A stretch of DNA of 64,000 bases, from contig NZ_CP160402.1 of assembly GCF_040730185.1 (NCBI RefSeq), forward strand, positions 3,782,001 to 3,846,000. The letters are read 5' to 3'. Position numbers and translations under genes: made by a program. The stretch is from Streptomyces sp. Je 1-332 (GTDB taxonomy: Bacteria; Actinomycetota; Actinomycetes; Streptomycetales; Streptomycetaceae). A model generated the notes under the pieces. That model made no database searches, was not told the DNA's origin, and saw only the letters and a list, made by a program, of their open reading frames with translations. This document shows, piece by piece, positions 5,644-12,590 of this stretch; position 1 is the stretch's first letter, and each line of letters opens with the position of its first letter.

Positions 5644-6391
5644 AGTGTCTGAAGCCCTGATCATGACCGGCCGGTCGATCCGCATCAGCCGACGGAACGT
5701 GGATGCCCTGATCACCTCGATGGCGCTCCCGGTGATGCTCCTGCTGATCTTCGTCTACTTCTTCGGCGGCGCGATCAAGACGGACACCCGGTCCTACGTC
5801 ACGTACGTGGTCCCCGGAGTCCTCCTCCTCTGCGCCGGCTTCGGCTCGTCGAACACGGCGATCGCGGTGACGGAGGACCTGAAGGGCGGCATCATCGACC
5901 GCTTCCGTTCCCTGGACATCGGCGGCACCCAGATCCTGGCGGGCCACGTCTTCGCCTCGGTGGCCCGCAACCTGCTCGCCACGTCCCTGGTCCTGGCCCT
6001 GGCCTTCGCGATCGGCTTCCGCCCGACGGCCACCCTGCCCGGCTGGCTCGCGGCGACCACCATCCTCCTGGCCTTCATCCTGGCCCTGTCCTGGCTCTCG
6101 GCAGCGGTGGGCCTGCTGGCCAAATCCCCCGAAGCGGCCGGCGGCTTCACCTTCTTCGTGAGCTTCCTCCCCTACCCCAGCAGCGCCTTCGTCCCCACCT
6201 CCACCATGCCCGACTGGCTCCAGGCCTTCGCCGACAACCAACCGGTGACGCAGGTGATCGAATCCCTGCGAGGCCTGCTCCTCGACCAGCCCGTGGGCGC
6301 GACCCCTTGGATCGCCCTGGCCTGGTGCACAGGAATCCTGACGGCTTCGGCGGCGGCGTCGGGCGCACTGTTCAGGAGGCGGACGGCGTGA
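5636..6391 (+). CDS. DrrB-type ABC-2 permease
   Basis: 251 residues, six predicted membrane segments. Characteristic ABC-2 features are ALPVMLLLIFVYFFGGAI near the N-terminus, the central GGIIDRFRSLDI loop (DrrB/NodJ signature) and FVSFLPYPSSAFVPTSTMPDWLQ near residue 190. It partners the DrrA-type ATPase immediately upstream. The last 20 bases overlap the 3' end of the convergent membrane-protein gene. Confidence 0.9.
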   Translation: MSEVSEALIMTGRSIRISRRNVDALITSMALPVMLLLIFVYFFGGAIKTDTRSYVTYVVPGVLLLCAGFGSSNTAIAVTEDLKGGIIDRFRSLDIGGTQILAGHVFASVARNLLATSLVLALAFAIGFRPTATLPGWLAATTILLAFILALSWLSAAVGLLAKSPEAAGGFTFFVSFLPYPSSAFVPTSTMPDWLQAFADNQPVTQVIESLRGLLLDQPVGATPWIALAWCTGILTASAAASGALFRRRTA

Positions 6392-7229
6392 GGGGTCGCG
6401 CCAGGTCCCAGAGCGTCTCGAAGAGCTCCTTGCGCTGCTTGCACTTCTCTCTGGCGGCGGCCCCCGCGTCGACATGCCAGCGCGTCAGGGAGGCGTGGTA
6501 CCCCATCAGGTCGAGCACCTGCCGACCCGACTCATCATTCGCGGGCTGTATCACCAGCTTGTCGTAGATCCCGTCGAAGAGCTGCTCGTCGTTGATGAGA
6601 CAGAACTTCAGGGAGGGAGAAATGTGCAGGACGCGAAAGTGCGGGTCGAGTTCCGCCTTTCCGTCCAGTTGCAGTCGTCTGGCCAGGTTCCTCATGCTGC
6701 GCTCGTACCCGTGCACCTGCGCCAGCAACTCGGCCCGCAGCAGGTCGTCGTCCTCCGCTTTCCCCTCTCCGTTGAGCATGCCGGGTATCTCCATCGGCTT
6801 GGTGAAGTCCGGTACGAGGATGCGCACCCTCACCTGCGGCCGCACGCTGCCGCGGAGGTCCTCCAGGCTCGTGGTGATCTGGTCGACCACCGTCTGGCCC
6901 GTGAATCCGATGGCATCGATGTGGGCTTCGCGTGACAGCAGCGACTCGTCGAAATACGTCTGGAGGTGGCGCGTCAGCACAGTTTCCCTGGTGGCTGGTC
7001 TCATCGCGGCGTTCAGCTTCTGGACCTCGCTGTACAACACGTAGCCCACCAAACTCAGGACGGCGCCTCCGAGATAGGCCTTGCCCTCCAGGGCGTCACC
7101 CACCGGCTGCACGAACTGGGCGACCAGACCGAGACCGAAGATGGAAAGAAGCAGCACCCTGGTGACGACGCTCTCGGACTGCGCCCACCCCTCCACGACG
7201 CGCTGTCTGACCGACACCCTACGAGCCAC
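6372..7229 (-). CDS. Membrane-anchored protein with degenerate PLD-like domain
   Basis: About 285 residues. The GTG at 7229 is preceded by GAGGGGGAATTG; a TTG one codon earlier is possible. Two membrane helices (about residues 23-41 and 52-70) are followed by a cytoplasmic domain: IDAIGFTGQTV, then VRVRILVP, then HFRVLHISPSLKFCLIND and a C-terminal ELFETLWDLAR. The same block order occurs in the two GntR proteins at 10061 and 11286. K-x5-D resembles a phospholipase-D HKD motif without its histidine, so I infer a sensing rather than catalytic domain. It is the last gene on the strand that starts with GntR, HAD and APH-HAD. No characterised function is known to me. Confidence 0.7.
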   Translation of the reverse strand: MARRVSVRQRVVEGWAQSESVVTRVLLLSIFGLGLVAQFVQPVGDALEGKAYLGGAVLSLVGYVLYSEVQKLNAAMRPATRETVLTRHLQTYFDESLLSREAHIDAIGFTGQTVVDQITTSLEDLRGSVRPQVRVRILVPDFTKPMEIPGMLNGEGKAEDDDLLRAELLAQVHGYERSMRNLARRLQLDGKAELDPHFRVLHISPSLKFCLINDEQLFDGIYDKLVIQPANDESGRQVLDLMGYHASLTRWHVDAGAAAREKCKQRKELFETLWDLARPLTPSAS

Positions 7230-7292
7230 CAATTCCCCCTCGCATCAAGCGTGTTGATCCGCAGGGGCTCATGGTGCCCGGTTCGTGGCCGG

Positions 7293-9179
7293 TCAGGAAG
7301 GGCCCGTCTCCACCAGGTCGACCAGGGGCTGAAGCGTCGTGATGATCACCTCGGCTCCGGCGGCGCGCAGAGGAGCCGCCTTGCGTTCGTCGCGTGCGTA
7401 TCCGACGAAGCGGACCCTCGCCTTCTCGGCCGCTTCCAGATCGGTCACCGTGTCACCGATCATCACCGCGTCCTCGGGCTCGGAGCCCAGAGCTTCCAGG
7501 GCCCGGCTCAAGGAGTGCGGGTCGGGCTTCAACAGGCTGGGTTCATCCGTCCGCCCGTAGATGTGCGGCCCGAACGCGTCCCGGAGCCCCGCCCTGTCGA
7601 GATAGGCGGCGACAGCCGTGGGTGAATTGTTCGTCACCACGGCGATCCGGCACCCCCTCGCCCGCAGAGCGAGGATGAGGTCACCGGCCCCAGGGGTAGC
7701 AGGGGCCGTCCGCGCCGCCTCCACCTCACCGTCCGTGAGCAGGGCTTCGAGCGAGGGGACGAGGTGCTTGCCCAGGGGGTCCTGGTCCATGGCCCGCAGG
7801 ACGTCGTGCGGATCAATGGTCTTCCTGACCGCCTCGGTGAGACGGTCCCCCAGGCCGTGCGCGGAAACCAGGTCCCTGAGATCCTGGGCGACGCCCTGCG
7901 ACGATCCGTTCGGGAACAGCCGGCAGACGGGTCCGTCGAAATCGAGGAGAACACAGCGGTCCGGTGACCGGGAGAGCCAGTCGGCGAGCTCCGTGAACCG
8001 GTCCGTTCCGATGGGCTCGCCCTCATGGCCGTCTGTCACATTGACCCAATCGTCGTGGGCACCGGCCGATCGCGCCGGCTCGGGCGCCCGCTGGTGGCGC
8101 GGTCCGGCCTGCCAGTCCCGCAGAGCTCGCACCACCTGCCACTCATCCGGTACGTCCACCAGCTTCAGGGGCTCAGCCGCCCGCCGCAAGGCCCGGCAGA
8201 TCTTCAGGGACGCGGATACGTAGTCGTTCTCGTGCGGCTCCGGCGGCAAGGCCAGTGCAGCCCTCATGACGTCGGGAAACACCGACTGGGCGTACTCGAA
8301 GTCCAGATAGACGCCGAGGTCGGTGTCGAGCCCGGCCACCATGTCCTCGTGGCCCGCGCGCGTCATGGCCTCGGACCACAGTGACGTCATACGCCTCTGC
8401 TCGTCCTTGTCGTAGCCCATCCGTACGAGATGGGTGGCGAGGTCGTGCAACGGATCGCCGTATATGGCCAGTTCCCAGTCGATGACGACCAGTTCGCCTC
8501 GGTCGATCACCACGTTGGCACGGTGAACGTCGGTGTGCAGCAAGCAGAACGGGCGGGACGTCAGGGGAGGGCGGTGTGGGTCGTTCTTGAAGTTGGTCAC
8601 GATGTCGGCCTTGATGCCCACAGCTTCGAAGAGCGTGTCGAACCTCTGCCGGTTGGGGCGGTGCACGTGTTCCTCGGTGAAATCGATGAGCCAGTCGAGA
8701 AAACGTCTGCTCTCACCGGACTGCGGCCAGTCCTCCGGGCGAGGGGGCAGCTCTTCCTCCGGTACATCTGCCGTCCGGGCGAAGAACTCGGCGAACGCGC
8801 TCATCAGTTCGTCGTCGACCGGACCGTCAGGATTCACGTCGGACAGCGCTTGGCCCGCGCGGTAGGCGTGCATCGACCAGTCCCCGAAATCCGCGAGACA
8901 CCGTGGCACTTCCCGCAGATATCGGGTCACCACCGACAGCAGCTGCGCCTCGCTGCGCCAGATGCGCGGCACCACCTCGACTCCGGCGAGCGGCGTACGG
9001 CACTTGACCTGTGCCCGCAGAGGCATCAGCAGGAGGATCGCCAGGGACCAGCCGAGCGGCACGACGTAGTTGACATTGTGATGCCCGTTCGTAACTCGAC
9101 CATCAGGTCGATCCCGATAGGAATCAGCGAGACGGCGAACCAGTGCCTGATGGGCTCTGCGAGGCAGAGGTGACGACAT
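7293..9179 (-). CDS. Aminoglycoside-phosphotransferase-like kinase fused to HAD hydrolase
   Basis: 628 residues. The N-terminal part (about 1-340) has the APH/choline-kinase fold: NGHHNVNYVV nucleotide strand, catalytic HTDVHRANVV and metal-binding VIDWELAIYGDPLHDL. The C-terminal part (about 405-628) is a HAD phosphatase: motif I LLDFDGPVCRLF, motif II VVTNNS, motif III LKPDPHS and motif IV MIGDTVTDLEAA. All catalytic residues appear present in both halves. The HAD part closely resembles the free-standing HAD encoded just upstream. A small-molecule kinase joined to a phosphatase suggests reversible phosphorylation of one substrate, but the substrate is unknown. Confidence 0.85.
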   Translation of the reverse strand: MSSPLPRRAHQALVRRLADSYRDRPDGRVTNGHHNVNYVVPLGWSLAILLLMPLRAQVKCRTPLAGVEVVPRIWRSEAQLLSVVTRYLREVPRCLADFGDWSMHAYRAGQALSDVNPDGPVDDELMSAFAEFFARTADVPEEELPPRPEDWPQSGESRRFLDWLIDFTEEHVHRPNRQRFDTLFEAVGIKADIVTNFKNDPHRPPLTSRPFCLLHTDVHRANVVIDRGELVVIDWELAIYGDPLHDLATHLVRMGYDKDEQRRMTSLWSEAMTRAGHEDMVAGLDTDLGVYLDFEYAQSVFPDVMRAALALPPEPHENDYVSASLKICRALRRAAEPLKLVDVPDEWQVVRALRDWQAGPRHQRAPEPARSAGAHDDWVNVTDGHEGEPIGTDRFTELADWLSRSPDRCVLLDFDGPVCRLFPNGSSQGVAQDLRDLVSAHGLGDRLTEAVRKTIDPHDVLRAMDQDPLGKHLVPSLEALLTDGEVEAARTAPATPGAGDLILALRARGCRIAVVTNNSPTAVAAYLDRAGLRDAFGPHIYGRTDEPSLLKPDPHSLSRALEALGSEPEDAVMIGDTVTDLEAAEKARVRFVGYARDERKAAPLRAAGAEVIITTLQPLVDLVETGPS

Positions 9180-9306
9180 GAGCGCAGAGGTTATCGCCTA
9201 CAGCACCTCGCCCTTACCACACGCCACATTCTGGACCCTGTCGGAGCGGTATGAATATCCCTCAGTGGGCCATGGTGAACAGTTCCCGGCAGGAGTTGAA
9301 TCAGGT

Positions 9307-9350
9307 TTGTCCCCGCAGCACCTTCAGGATTGTCCCCGCAGCACCTTCAG
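9307..9350. repeat. 23-bp tandem duplication at the 3' end of the HAD gene
   Basis: TTGTCCCCGCAGCACCTTCAG occurs at 9307-9327 and again at 9330-9350, one unit of 23 bp repeated. Because 23 is not a multiple of three, the duplication moves the reading frame at the extreme C-terminus. The present stop at 9324 falls inside the outer copy. Confidence 0.8.
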
Positions 9351-10031
9351 CAATGGCTGCAGCGAACTCACCACACACTCCGCCCCCGACTCCTTCAGGA
9401 GTTTCGCCTGCCTCTCGTCACGCGCGAATCCCAGGAAGGCCACCCTGGCCCGCAGGGCCGCTTCGCAGTCCGTAGCGGCATCGCCGATCATCAGCGCGCT
9501 GGAGGGTTCCGCGCCCATGGCGCTGAGTGCGCGGTTGAGGCAGTGCGGGTTCGGCTTGAGGAGGTGCAGGTCCTGGGTGCGGCCGTAGATGTGCGGGGCG
9601 AAGCAGTGGCCCAGCTGTCGGCTTTCGAGGTAACGGCTCACCGCACGCGGCGAGTTGTTCGTGGTGACGGCAAGGCGGGAGCCCATGGCGTGCCACGTCA
9701 TGATGAGAGGGTCCGCGTACTGGGTGGGCCAGGCCGATGCCACCGCCGTCAGCTCCTGATGTGTGAGTCGTTCCTCCAGCTCGGTCACCAGATCGCTGCC
9801 GGAGTGCCTGCGGTCGACCGCACGCAGGACGGCATGCGGATCGGGCTGCTCCCGCTCCTCCGCGGTCAGCAGCCCGTGCAGCCCTCGCCCCTCGAGCCAG
9901 CGGACCTGCTCACTCGCGATCCGCTCCGCCGAGTGCCCGGCGAACAGCCGGCAGATGGGGCCGTCGAAATCGAAGAGTACGAAGCGGGCTCGTTCGATCA
10001 ACTCACGCAGCTTCTTGGTCTCTTCTGCCAT
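9324..10031 (-). CDS. HAD-superfamily hydrolase
   Basis: About 235 residues. HAD motifs: VLFDFDGPICRLF (nucleophile Asp, general acid Asp), VTTNNS, LKPNPH (Lys) and LMIGDAATDCEAA (metal-binding Asp). It is very similar to the C-terminal half of the kinase-HAD fusion downstream, including the unusual FDGP-CRLF motif, so the two are paralogues. Start: the ATG at 10031 matches the paralogue's domain border. A GTG at 10061, overlapping the GntR stop codon, is an alternative that would give translational coupling. The C-terminus ends in a tandem duplication. Confidence 0.85.
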   Translation of the reverse strand: MAEETKKLRELIERARFVLFDFDGPICRLFAGHSAERIASEQVRWLEGRGLHGLLTAEEREQPDPHAVLRAVDRRHSGSDLVTELEERLTHQELTAVASAWPTQYADPLIMTWHAMGSRLAVTTNNSPRAVSRYLESRQLGHCFAPHIYGRTQDLHLLKPNPHCLNRALSAMGAEPSSALMIGDAATDCEAALRARVAFLGFARDERQAKLLKESGAECVVSSLQPLLKVLRGQS

Positions 10032-10060
10032 CCACTCAGTCTGCGTCGTATCAGGAGTCA

Positions 10061-10942
10061 CTAAGAGAGTGTCAGCTCCGTCGCGATGGTTGCCCAGAGC
10101 GCGTCGAACCATTTCTGGGACTCTTCCACGAACGCCGCGTCCCGGGGGGCCGCGTTCTTGTCGAAGGAGAACAGCGGCGACTTCAGTCCGGACACGTCGA
10201 ACGCCTCCATCTCCGCGCTGCCGAGATCCAGCATGCTGCGCTCGATCGTGTAGTAGGCGAGGAGCGCCTCCGAGCCGTTGAGCAGATACAGCTTGACCGG
10301 CGGCGTGAACGGCAGTGCGCGGAACGACACGTCCACGTCGATGCCGTGCGAGGACCGCAGGGCGCGCAGGTTGTGGCGCAGTACCTGCCCTTGAGTGTTG
10401 CGCTGCGCCAGCCATCGCTGGTGCACGCGGCCGTCGTCGTCCTGCCCCTCGGTCGGCCGGGGAAAGGCCAGCGTGATGCCGCTGCTGGGGAGCAGGATGC
10501 GCACGTTGATGGACTCGGGACGTATGTCTCCCCCGTGGATGAGACGCAGCGGCTCCCCCAGCGCGATCATCAGGGTCTCCGCCGTGTACGACACGACATC
10601 TATCCGCACCCGCGGCTCCGAGAACGCGTCGGCCAGCCGTGGTGCCAGGCCCACCATCGAGGCCTGGGGTTCCACACCCGCCGATGTCGAGACCGGCGGC
10701 TCCGCCGCGATGCGGGGTGGGCTGCCCTTGCTCACGTTGGCGAGCAGTCCGTCCCCCTGCAGTGTCTTCAGCGCCTGCCGCACCGTCCCGCGTTCCACGC
10801 CGAACTCCTCCGCGAGCAGCGCCTGCGTGGGGAGGCGGTCGCCCGGTTTGAGGTCGCCGGTGCGGATGCGGTCGCGGAGGGTGTCTGCGATGTCCTGGGG
10901 AGTGAGTTTTCTGCCGTTCACTGCAACGTTCTCCTGGGTCAC
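10061..10942 (-). CDS. GntR regulator with C-terminal PLD-like sensor domain
   Basis: About 293 residues from GTG 10942, the leaderless start; GTG 10921 behind AGGAG is an alternative. The GntR winged helix occupies roughly residues 15-80 (LKPGDRLPTQALLAEEFGVE, then RGTVRQALKTLQGDGLLANV). The C-terminal domain is neither FadR/FCD nor UTRA. It has VRIDVVSYTAET, VRILLPS, NLRALR, RALPFTPPVKLYLLNGSEA and WFDALWATIA, matching the GntR at 11286 and the membrane protein at 6372. It heads the HAD and APH-HAD genes, and a similar small membrane-peptide gene is divergent from it. The ligand is unknown. Confidence 0.8.
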   Translation of the reverse strand: MTQENVAVNGRKLTPQDIADTLRDRIRTGDLKPGDRLPTQALLAEEFGVERGTVRQALKTLQGDGLLANVSKGSPPRIAAEPPVSTSAGVEPQASMVGLAPRLADAFSEPRVRIDVVSYTAETLMIALGEPLRLIHGGDIRPESINVRILLPSSGITLAFPRPTEGQDDDGRVHQRWLAQRNTQGQVLRHNLRALRSSHGIDVDVSFRALPFTPPVKLYLLNGSEALLAYYTIERSMLDLGSAEMEAFDVSGLKSPLFSFDKNAAPRDAAFVEESQKWFDALWATIATELTLS

Positions 10943-10948
10943 GACCAG

Positions 10949-11044
10949 ACGATACAACTCGTCGCCATCTCAGGGCAGTTGTCTAGAAGTTGTTTATGTC
11001 ATGGGACCAAGTGGGGACAACTAAAGTGAAGTTGGTTGCCAACT
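10949..11044. promoter_or_regulatory. Divergent promoter/operator region with repeated AGTTG/CAACT half sites
   Basis: Between the GntR gene and the small membrane peptide. On the minus strand TATCGT (10949-10954) lies 6 bases before GTG 10942, the spacing of a leaderless promoter. The region holds several AGTTG or CAACT half sites, including the inverted repeat AGTTGG-ttg-CCAACT at 11030-11044. The second GntR/peptide pair has nearly the same inverted repeat, so it is the likely GntR operator. Confidence 0.6.
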
Positions 11045-11073
11045 CATCCGAGATGGCAGAAGGGGGAACCATC

Positions 11074-11262
11074 ATGGCCGTCCTCGCCCTCCTCGCAGCA
11101 GCCTTCGCCGTCACCGTCGAACAGTTCGTCCAGTGGCGGTACGGGCCCGTGGGCATCATCGGACTACTGCTCCTGACCATCGGAATCAAGGCGAAGAGCC
11201 CCACCTGCAGCTCCATCGGCGCCGTCGTGCTCGCGCTGATGATGACCGGGCCCGCGCTCTAG
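11074..11262 (+). CDS. Small membrane protein, paralogue 1
   Basis: 62 residues with RBS GAAGGGGGAACC before the ATG. Two hydrophobic helices flank a central conserved block VEQFVQWRYGPVGI and GIKAKS. The paralogue at 12405 has FEQLIQWKYGPMGI and GIKAKS at the same positions. It is transcribed away from the GntR gene at 10942, with the shared inverted repeat just upstream. The conserved charged E-Q-W-[RK]-Y core between helices suggests a folded membrane protein or partner-binding site rather than a random peptide. Function unknown. Confidence 0.75.
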   Translation: MAVLALLAAAFAVTVEQFVQWRYGPVGIIGLLLLTIGIKAKSPTCSSIGAVVLALMMTGPAL

Positions 11263-11264
11263 CC

Positions 11265-11283
11265 GGGGGCCGGCCGAGCCCCC
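11265..11283. terminator. Hairpin between convergent genes
   Basis: GGGGGC, 7-base loop, GCCCCC. It lies in the 23-base gap between the small membrane peptide and the end of the second GntR gene; it may be bidirectional. Confidence 0.5.
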
Positions 11284-11285
11284 CG

Positions 11286-12191
11286 CTATCGGCGGGCGAG
11301 TTCCAGGTCCTGGCTGATCGTGCCCCACAGCGCGTTGAACCACAGATGGGACTGCTCCACGAACGTCGTGTCCCGCAGACCGTCGCCCTGCTGGAAGGGG
11401 AAGAGCATCGACTGCGCGCCCTGGGCGTCGTACATCTCCAGGTTCTCGTGGTCGATCTCTTCGCTCTGCCTGGTCAGCGTGTAGTACGCGAAGAGCGCCT
11501 CGGAGCCGTTGAGCAGATACAGCTTCACCGGCGGCGTGAACGGCAGCGCGCGGAACGAGACCTGTACGTCGATGCCGTGCGAGGTCCGCAGCGCGAGGAG
11601 GTTGTGGCGCAGCACCTGCCCCTGCGCGTTCCGCTGGTCGAGCCAGCGCTTGTGCACCTGCCCGTTCTCGTCGTCCCCGCTGTCCACCGGCGCCGGAAAG
11701 GCGAGATCGATGCTGCGGCTCGGCAGCAGCACCCGGACGTCGACCTTGGCCGGTTTCCGCTGTCCGGCGTGAATCTGACGCAGCGGTTCGCCGATCGCCA
11801 TCGTGAGCGAGATGGAGGTCAGACAGAGCGCGTCGATCTCCACGTGCGGGGCCTCGAAGGCCGCGGCGATGCGCGGGGCGAGGCCGACCATGGTGGGCTG
11901 CGGCTTCACTCCGCCGGGCCCGGACAGCACCTGCTTCGAGGTCATGGCGACCGTCGCGGGGCTCCCCTTGGACACGTTCGCCAGCAGGTTCTCGCCCCGC
12001 AGCGTGCGCAGCGCCTCGCGTATCGCGCCGCGCTCGACGCCGAACTCTTCGGCCAACTCGGCCTGGGTCGGCATGCGTTGGCCCGGCCGCAACGCACCGG
12101 ACCTGATCCGGTCGCGCAGTTCGTCGGCCACCTCGTGGTGCGATCTTGGCGGCCTCTTCATCCCATTGACTGGGGCAGGTTCCGGGCTCAC
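11286..12191 (-). CDS. GntR regulator with C-terminal PLD-like sensor domain, second copy
   Basis: About 301 residues from GTG 12191, which lies 6 bases after a TACTGT -10-like element; ATG 12161 is an alternative. The winged helix is PGQRMPTQAELAEEFGVERG followed by AIREALRTLRGENLLANVSK. The C-terminal domain repeats the features of the GntR at 10061: VEIDALCLTS, VDVRVLLPSRS, FRALPFTPPVKLYLLNGSEA and LWFNALWGTIS. It is a tandem paralogue whose only neighbour is the divergent membrane peptide at 12405. There are no HAD or kinase genes here, so the GntR/peptide pair appears to be the minimal unit. Confidence 0.8.
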   Translation of the reverse strand: MSPEPAPVNGMKRPPRSHHEVADELRDRIRSGALRPGQRMPTQAELAEEFGVERGAIREALRTLRGENLLANVSKGSPATVAMTSKQVLSGPGGVKPQPTMVGLAPRIAAAFEAPHVEIDALCLTSISLTMAIGEPLRQIHAGQRKPAKVDVRVLLPSRSIDLAFPAPVDSGDDENGQVHKRWLDQRNAQGQVLRHNLLALRTSHGIDVQVSFRALPFTPPVKLYLLNGSEALFAYYTLTRQSEEIDHENLEMYDAQGAQSMLFPFQQGDGLRDTTFVEQSHLWFNALWGTISQDLELARR

Positions 12192-12197
12192 AACCAA

Positions 12198-12294
12198 ACA
12201 GTACAACTTCGCGCCATCTTTGGGGAGTTACTCGGAAGGTGGTTATGAATCGCGCCATCGCGGAGATAACTCAGATGAAGTTGGTAGCCAACTT
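12198..12294. promoter_or_regulatory. Second divergent GntR promoter/operator
   Basis: TACTGT on the minus strand at 12198-12203 precedes GTG 12191. AAGTTGG-tag-CCAACTT at 12278-12294 is a perfect 17-bp inverted repeat matching that of the first pair. A further shared block reading AGATGGCG-GA-GTTGTA on the minus strand abuts both leaderless -10 elements. Confidence 0.6.
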
Positions 12295-12363
12295 AGGCAA
12301 CCTGGCAGGAACCCCAAGGGGTTGGCCACCAGGGGTGGGCCTTCGGAAGGCTGCCGACCGGAT

Positions 12364-12389
12364 GGGACGGGGACCGCTTGCCCCGTCCC
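12364..12389 (+). other. Strong hairpin in the 5' leader of the small membrane peptide
   Basis: GGGACGGGG, loop ACCGCTTG, CCCCGTCCC: a perfect 9-bp stem directly before the RBS AAGGGGGAA. It could limit translation or stabilise the mRNA. The first peptide gene has no equivalent. Confidence 0.6.
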
Positions 12390-12404
12390 GAAAGGGGGAA
12401 CGTC

Positions 12405-12590
12405 ATGCCGCTCATCGCCATCGTCATCGCCGCCCTCGCCATCGGATTCGAGCAGCTCATCCAGTGGAAGTACGGACCGATGGGCATCGTCGCCTTCGTC
12501 CTGCTGACCGTGGGCATCAAGGCCAAGAGCACCAAGATCAGCGGCGTCGGGGCTGCGCTCCTCGTCCTGCTGCTCGCCCAGTCGGGCTGA
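12405..12590 (+). CDS. Small membrane protein, paralogue 2
   Basis: 61 residues with RBS AAAGGGGGAACGTC before the ATG. It has the same plan as the 11074 peptide: N-terminal hydrophobic helix, the conserved FEQLIQWKYGPMGI core, a second helix, GIKAKS and a third short hydrophobic segment. It is divergent from the GntR gene ending at 11286 and followed by a strong terminator, so it is a single-gene transcript. Conservation between paralogues confirms a real gene too short for routine detection. Function unknown. Confidence 0.8.
   Translation: MPLIAIVIAALAIGFEQLIQWKYGPMGIVAFVLLTVGIKAKSTKISGVGAALLVLLLAQSG

Follow-up and report, generated by a model that had tools for sequence, protein, structure and literature searches.

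The cluster of seven genes at positions 6372–12590 of a 64,000-nt stretch of DNA from Streptomyces sp. Je 1-332 (termed the window) appears from its sequence to be a version of the Streptomyces dev locus with extra genes. It is a real, conserved and functionally linked locus with a published core, the devA/devB/devC/devE locus (PMC3187754), and the view in an earlier reading of the window (the original prediction) that no description of this gene set was known is therefore not supported. New here are a predicted, catalytically dead phospholipase D (PLD)-like sensor domain that the GntR regulators DevA and DevE share with a membrane protein, a nearly local palindrome whose centre is linked to the regulator paralogue, kinase partners, and a kinship to regulators of conjugative elements.

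DevA and DevE are required for normal Streptomyces sporulation (PMC3187754). In S. coelicolor, devA is SCO4190, a GntR gene, and devE is its paralogue SCO4188. The devB gene encodes a putative phosphatase/hydrolase and is co-transcribed with devA; devC is divergent and encodes about 50 amino acids (aa). devA is autorepressed, devA and devE mutants are viable and sporulation defective, and DevE is reported to exert no cross-regulation. Knowledge of the functions, regulons and sensed metabolites of DevA and DevE is presented there as being at an early stage.

In the window, devA (positions 10061–10942, minus strand) and devE (positions 11286–12191, minus strand) encode proteins that are 60% identical. 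Both display an N-terminal winged helix, PF00392 (Pfam, 5.6e-17 and 4.3e-17); behind it Pfam names no catalogued domain and the predicted fold is PLD-like. A HAD-type phosphatase gene (positions 9324–10061, minus strand), in which Pfam finds a HAD domain, is taken as devB from its position behind devA; its GTG start overlaps the devA stop codon by one base. It is followed by a single open reading frame in which an APH-type kinase is fused to a second HAD domain (positions 7293–9179, minus strand; Pfam APH 7.9e-17 at residues 76–259, Hydrolase 3.9e-24 at residues 471–587). The fused HAD half is 49.5% identical to DevB. Both HAD domains and the kinase retain their catalytic motifs. The membrane protein gene (positions 6372–7217, minus strand) probably starts at 7217. 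Two small membrane peptides, a devC-type peptide of 62 aa (positions 11074–11262, plus strand) and a paralogue of 61 aa adjoining devE (positions 12405–12590, plus strand), are 49% identical and each is divergent from one GntR gene. The membrane protein and both peptides give nothing at the Pfam cut-off. The likely starts of the two GntR genes are the internal GTGs at 10942 and 12191, each below a −10-like TAnnGT, and not the upstream TTG codons. All of these genes and both paralogies had been named in the original prediction and are borne out by the open reading frames, Pfam and the identities. TTA (bldA) codons are absent from the seven genes. PADLOC matches that would point to a role in anti-phage defence are weak (best E-value = 0.0024).

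The assignment of the first GntR gene as devA, the second as devE, the HAD gene as devB and the peptides as a putative DevC and its paralogue follows from the agreement of oligonucleotides, leaderless start and layout. Four published oligonucleotide sequences were compared with the window, and two of them have a clear match there. The oligonucleotide for devA deletion matches with its 3′ half at positions 10072–10118 (minus strand) in 39 of 47 bases (8 mismatches), and the devE cloning primer matches positions 12460–12477, inside the second peptide gene, in 16 of 18 bases. Within the limit applied, the 5′ half of the devA oligonucleotide has no match in the first 20 kb of the window. The other devE primer matches equally well, with 4 mismatches, at just two places, one of which is far off. 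The leaderless start of S. coelicolor devA is listed as CGAAGTTGTAGCGTTTGGTCGTG in PMC3160421, and its counterpart in the window is CGAGTTGTATCGTCTGGTCGTG. The layout is that of S. coelicolor: two adjacent paralogous GntR genes, a co-directional phosphatase gene behind devA and a divergent small open reading frame. The text of PMC3187754 uses none of the words “kinase”, “phosphotransferase”, “membrane” or “ligand” and mentions neither a kinase-HAD fusion nor the membrane protein; the PLD fold and the palindrome are likewise additions of the present analysis. According to that paper, S. sviceus and S. coelicolor alone have retained a devC-like gene beside devE; here, one is found beside 30 DevE-type genes.

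DevA, DevE and the membrane protein are predicted to share a catalytically dead PLD-like domain. A DevA search of the source genome finds the membrane protein (E-value = 9.2e-8, residues 115–292, 25% identity), and a profile-profile comparison of the GntR and membrane families gives a probability of 99.9 (E-value = 3.5e-31, 196 columns). A common C-terminal domain with a likeness to PLD folds had been proposed from its motifs alone; VR-x-L-[LV]P, K-x4-N and the terminal LW are indeed present in the consensus of both families. Structure prediction and fold search agree on a PLD-like fold for the C-terminal domains of the DevA family and of the membrane protein (predicted models). The column of the catalytic His in the HxKx4D motif holds a His in 0 of 64, 0 of 14 and 0 of 34 alignment rows. 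The 64-row alignment is composed of 2 window sequences, 13 of 120 listed homologues and 49 of 50 representatives of 241 GntR proteins. An active phospholipase is ruled out because this His is missing. The Lys is kept and the Asp is replaced by Asn in nearly all rows; an Arg, a Lys and an Asn are conserved across the GntR and membrane families. The domain thus has the fold and the HKD Lys in common with the PLD superfamily (Nuc/NucT and Zucchini, and the non-catalytic or sensory TrmB and FAM83 DUF1669 proteins), but differs in the missing His, the Asp to Asn change, and its attachment either to a winged helix of GntR type or to a membrane segment. No description of a PLD fold for DevA was found in the open-licence literature, and the DevA C-terminal domain has no match in 50,697 phage records at E-value 1e-4. 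Many homologues of the membrane protein are labelled “ATP/GTP-binding protein” in public records; Pfam has no domain in those listed, and the fold search gives a PLD-like domain.

The space between each GntR gene and its peptide gene carries a palindrome. Candidate operators are AGTTGGTTGCCAACT (positions 11030–11044), between devA and the 62-aa peptide gene, and AGTTGGTAGCCAACT (positions 12279–12293), between devE and the 61-aa peptide gene. These are the two AGTTG-N5-CAACT sites of the window, where 0.01 are expected. In the whole 8.27-Mb genome the longer AAGTTG-N5-CAACT has no place other than these two (the reversed control pattern has 5 strand matches), and AGTTG-N5-CAACT has one further exact place; with one mismatch allowed there is no excess (130 versus 222 in the control). 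Across the fetched loci, AGTTG-N5-CAACT is present in 72 of 108 GntR/peptide intergenic regions (77 sites) versus 2.9 expected from the loci's own sequence, with the consensus AGTTGG[TC]NGCCAACT. Sites were counted in 73 genomes with fetched loci, taking locus regions of up to 18 kb each and the first 20 kb of the window: 93 of 108 AGTTGGNNNCCAACT sites fall inside locus regions and 15 outside. The direct DevA/DevE regulon therefore looks mainly local. The regulators differ as well. A site is present in 38 of 50 DevA-type and 28 of 30 DevE-type regions, and a T stands at the centre of 35 of 39 DevA-linked sites versus 4 of 28 DevE-linked sites. This difference in the centre could account for the lack of cross-regulation reported in the literature.

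A second element lies over the GntR promoters. Half-sites CAACT-N17-AGTTG (positions 10955–10981, minus strand; without background control) stand next to the −10-like TATCGT of devA (positions 10949–10954), and AACT-N17-AGTT (positions 12204–12229, minus strand) next to the −10-like TACTGT of devE (positions 12198–12203). AACT-N17-AGTT extends across the promoter of the GntR gene in 82 of the 108 regions (a count without background control), AGTTGTA is found in 84 versus 3.7 expected, and a leaderless-start pattern in 62. The published autorepression of devA fits this promoter element. The palindrome itself is 16–188 nt, in one case 447 nt, upstream of the estimated peptide start, a position that makes direct control most likely for the peptide genes. 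The 113 aligned peptides have three hydrophobic stretches each and a consensus near MPxLALLxAvFvvGFEQLVQWKYGxxGIVGLLLLTVGIKAK...SSIGAVxLALL.

The genes occur together in a non-random way across Streptomyces, as the original prediction had anticipated. In 121 genomes of the genus, the DevA-type GntR protein is found in 76 (E-value 1e-25), the peptide in 63 (E-value 1e-4), kinase and/or HAD in 80 (E-value 1e-20), and the membrane protein in 21 (E-value 1e-10), of which 13 are below 1e-30 and the weaker ones include the GntR domain itself. Kinase/HAD is present in 75 of 76 genomes with the GntR protein versus 5 of 45 without, and the peptide in 62 of 76 versus 1 of 45; these species are related, so that Fisher values for the counts overstate independence. 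Regions from another 72 genomes of this set, and from 5 that belong to named records, were added to the comparison, which covers 81 loci including the window; three of the 76 GntR-positive genomes (G005, G028, G076) without a listed place were left out, and some regions end at contig ends, so that genes missing there are not proven absences. Of 163 GntR copies, 108 have a divergent peptide gene and 2 are at a locus edge; 109 of 113 peptides face a GntR gene. Among 70 dev-type genomes, 67 carry the peptide at the locus, 68 a HAD gene, 64 a kinase gene and 61 all three, while 14 carry the membrane protein; there is one GntR copy in 17 genomes, two in 27, three in 21 and four in 5. Neither the membrane protein, seen in 14 of the 81 loci, nor the true kinase-HAD fusion, seen in 1 of 81 (the window), is a general part of the set; both are local extras. 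Kinase and HAD are often separate neighboring genes in relatives, and many loci encode a protein of ~700 aa with two APH regions, the kinases being single or double. Two-APH proteins of 701–758 aa that replace the single kinase are seen, e.g. in L080:3873-6020, L089:3579-5684 and L098:5373-7649.

In the mechanism we propose, dimers of DevA and DevE would bind AGTTGGNNNCCAACT between their gene and the divergent peptide gene, as well as half-sites over their own leaderless promoters, and would thereby repress the small membrane peptide and their own operon (devA, devB, kinase/HAD and membrane protein). The dead PLD domain may read one small, probably phosphorylated molecule, held by the conserved Arg, Lys and Asn. 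That molecule may also be read at the membrane by the membrane protein, and the kinase together with the HAD phosphatases would alter its phosphorylation and close a feedback loop. Sporulation phenotypes would arise from products of the locus (DevB, the peptides), because the operator is nearly confined to it. As a whole this mechanism has about an even chance of being correct. The common domain with its fold and lost His, the co-occurrence, and the palindrome with its confinement come from computation, whereas DNA binding to the palindrome, the ligand, the phosphorylation cycle, the direction of induction and the peptide output are inferred. Several observations count against the mechanism. 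Foldseek matches to PLD-type chains are modest (best E-value = 1.3e-4; whole-model TM-score at most 0.36 among the matches listed). The palindrome is missing from 36 of the 108 regions and is rare beside third-type GntR copies (5 of 28 regions), and a recognized divergent peptide is missing for 53 of the 163 GntR copies. With position ignored, AGTTGGNNNCCAACT occurs 105 times in the 63 genomes that carry the peptide, where the reversed control gives 66, and 14 times in the other 58, where the control gives 29; it is notable for its position, and the numbers alone are not striking. Since DevE is reported not to cross-regulate, the near-identical palindromes need another specificity determinant. 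The rarity of the membrane protein and of the true fusion also weighs on this side.

Other explanations have to be set beside the repressor-sensor mechanism. The dead PLD domain may, instead of sensing a small molecule, be a platform that binds protein or nucleic acid, the membrane protein anchoring DevA and DevE to the membrane through domain pairing and the kinase and phosphatases acting on something else. PLD-type domains often pair, and the best structural matches include FAM83B and the archaeal chromatin protein TrmBL2. However, the Arg, Lys and Asn conserved in both families suggest a pocket that has been retained, almost every genome has kinase/HAD genes behind the GntR gene, and the membrane protein is missing from most loci; the platform is considered unlikely. 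Less probable again is that DevA and DevE hold off harmful membrane peptides, in a kil-kor-like or toxin-antitoxin-like pair akin to the control of conjugative elements. Small hydrophobic peptides do face a dedicated repressor gene, a sister clade lies in conjugative elements (see below), and the GntR protein KorSA is the kor part of pSAM2 (PMC8584621). But devA and devE mutants, in which the peptide would be released, survive and show sporulation defects (PMC3187754), and 13 element-borne loci are without a recognized peptide. A chance cluster of unrelated genes might be argued from the variable gene content, with 1 to 4 GntR copies per genome and single or double kinases; it is contradicted by the presence of peptide, HAD and kinase beside GntR in most dev-type genomes and by the palindrome common to the loci, and is rejected as next to impossible.

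A sample of 296 genomes from the class has the DevA-type domain in 32, of which 10 are not Streptomyces; 6 of the 114 genera sampled have it, Streptomyces included. Gene context was read for the 10 non-Streptomyces genomes and three more Streptomyces loci, and 94 loci were searched with nine reference proteins of mobile elements. Integrase, excisionase, RepSA or FtsK-type transfer genes are in the GntR stretch of 13 of the 94 loci; two of these element-borne loci display PF20199 (1.4e-146 and 9.7e-154). Four of the 13 come from the 121-genome set, and none has a recognized peptide. There are no such matches in the 73 dev-type loci, and 8 further loci have neither context. The window itself (64 kb) has no tblastn match at 1e-8 to the nine reference proteins (integrase, RepSA, FtsK-type). 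A DevB-like HAD gene is behind GntR in 6 of the 13 (L247, L255, L308, L310, L315, L317). In L309:5857-6699, L308:5192-6723, L307, L310, L311, L315, L317, L208, L221, L247 and L255, DevA-like GntR genes adjoin integrase, RepSA and FtsK-type genes that belong to integrative conjugative elements.

A tree of 85 of 182 rows (near-copies dropped, SH-aLRT support only, some long branches) separates 10 element-borne and 7 context-less copies (support 90) from 53 dev copies and one context-less copy (96); the membrane proteins are outside both GntR groups (95). The tree leaves the direction between chromosomal and element-borne copies unset. Plasmids carry PLD-type GntR, HAD and APH kinase sets as well: a plasmid of S. 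canus (L319:5387-10420) has HAD, a weakly devC-like divergent small open reading frame (E-value = 0.0017), GntR and kinase, and one of Streptomyces sp. NBC_01724 (L320:6647-9675) has GntR, HAD and kinase. In a plasmid of Nocardia sp. NBC_01388 (L318:8614-10825), GntR is divergent from an excisionase gene and lies before a glycosyltransferase family 2 gene, with no HAD gene there. A 1338-aa nSTAND-WD40 protein is found near a context-less GntR-HAD copy (L095:1642-5658). The sister clade resembles KorSA/Pif of pSAM2 in having a GntR gene beside transfer and replication genes and a partner enzyme that acts on phosphate bonds (PMC3218068 and PMC8584621), but the partner is HAD here and NUDIX there, and the window is without element genes.

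The published evolutionary reading is questioned here because the sampled relatives outside Streptomyces mostly adjoin conjugative-element genes. Single-copy relatives, 30%–35% identical to DevA or DevE, were treated as the ancestral state, and STROP0072 of Salinispora tropica was used for complementation (PMC3187754). That paper considers horizontal transfer for S. sviceus, but its text contains none of the words “mobile”, “conjugative” or “integrase”. Two elements are named in a legend of PMC3364876: AICEStrop0058 of S. tropica CNB-440 (14.9 kb) and AICESare1562 of S. arenicola CNS-205 (13.3 kb). If these names follow integrase tags, STROP0072 and SARE1572 are 14 and 10 tags off, about one element length, which makes it plausible that both are conjugative-element genes. 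A Salinispora devA primer had no match in 22 genomes of the family of G254 (a family suggested not to be that of Salinispora), and no report linking DevA-like genes with conjugative elements was found in the open-licence literature.

The DevA family might at root be a mobile-element module, a GntR repressor with a dead PLD sensor and often a HAD enzyme, that ties conjugation to a phosphorylated metabolite. The chromosomal version in Streptomyces would then have been multiplied in tandem and joined to peptides and kinases to become a sporulation checkpoint with a nearly local regulon, and the Salinispora “ancestral devA” would be a mobile-element gene and not a developmental ancestor. This is a tentative proposal, somewhat more doubtful than the mechanism above; if true, one metabolite would inform both conjugation and sporulation. 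The “ancestral devA” of the published complementation may belong to the element-borne sister clade. For the dev locus, the present analysis proposes a precise operator with a centre that varies with the paralogue, a mainly local direct regulon, and candidate partner enzymes and peptides. It also proposes a fold for the sensor of DevA and DevE, which makes the signal of this checkpoint open to testing.
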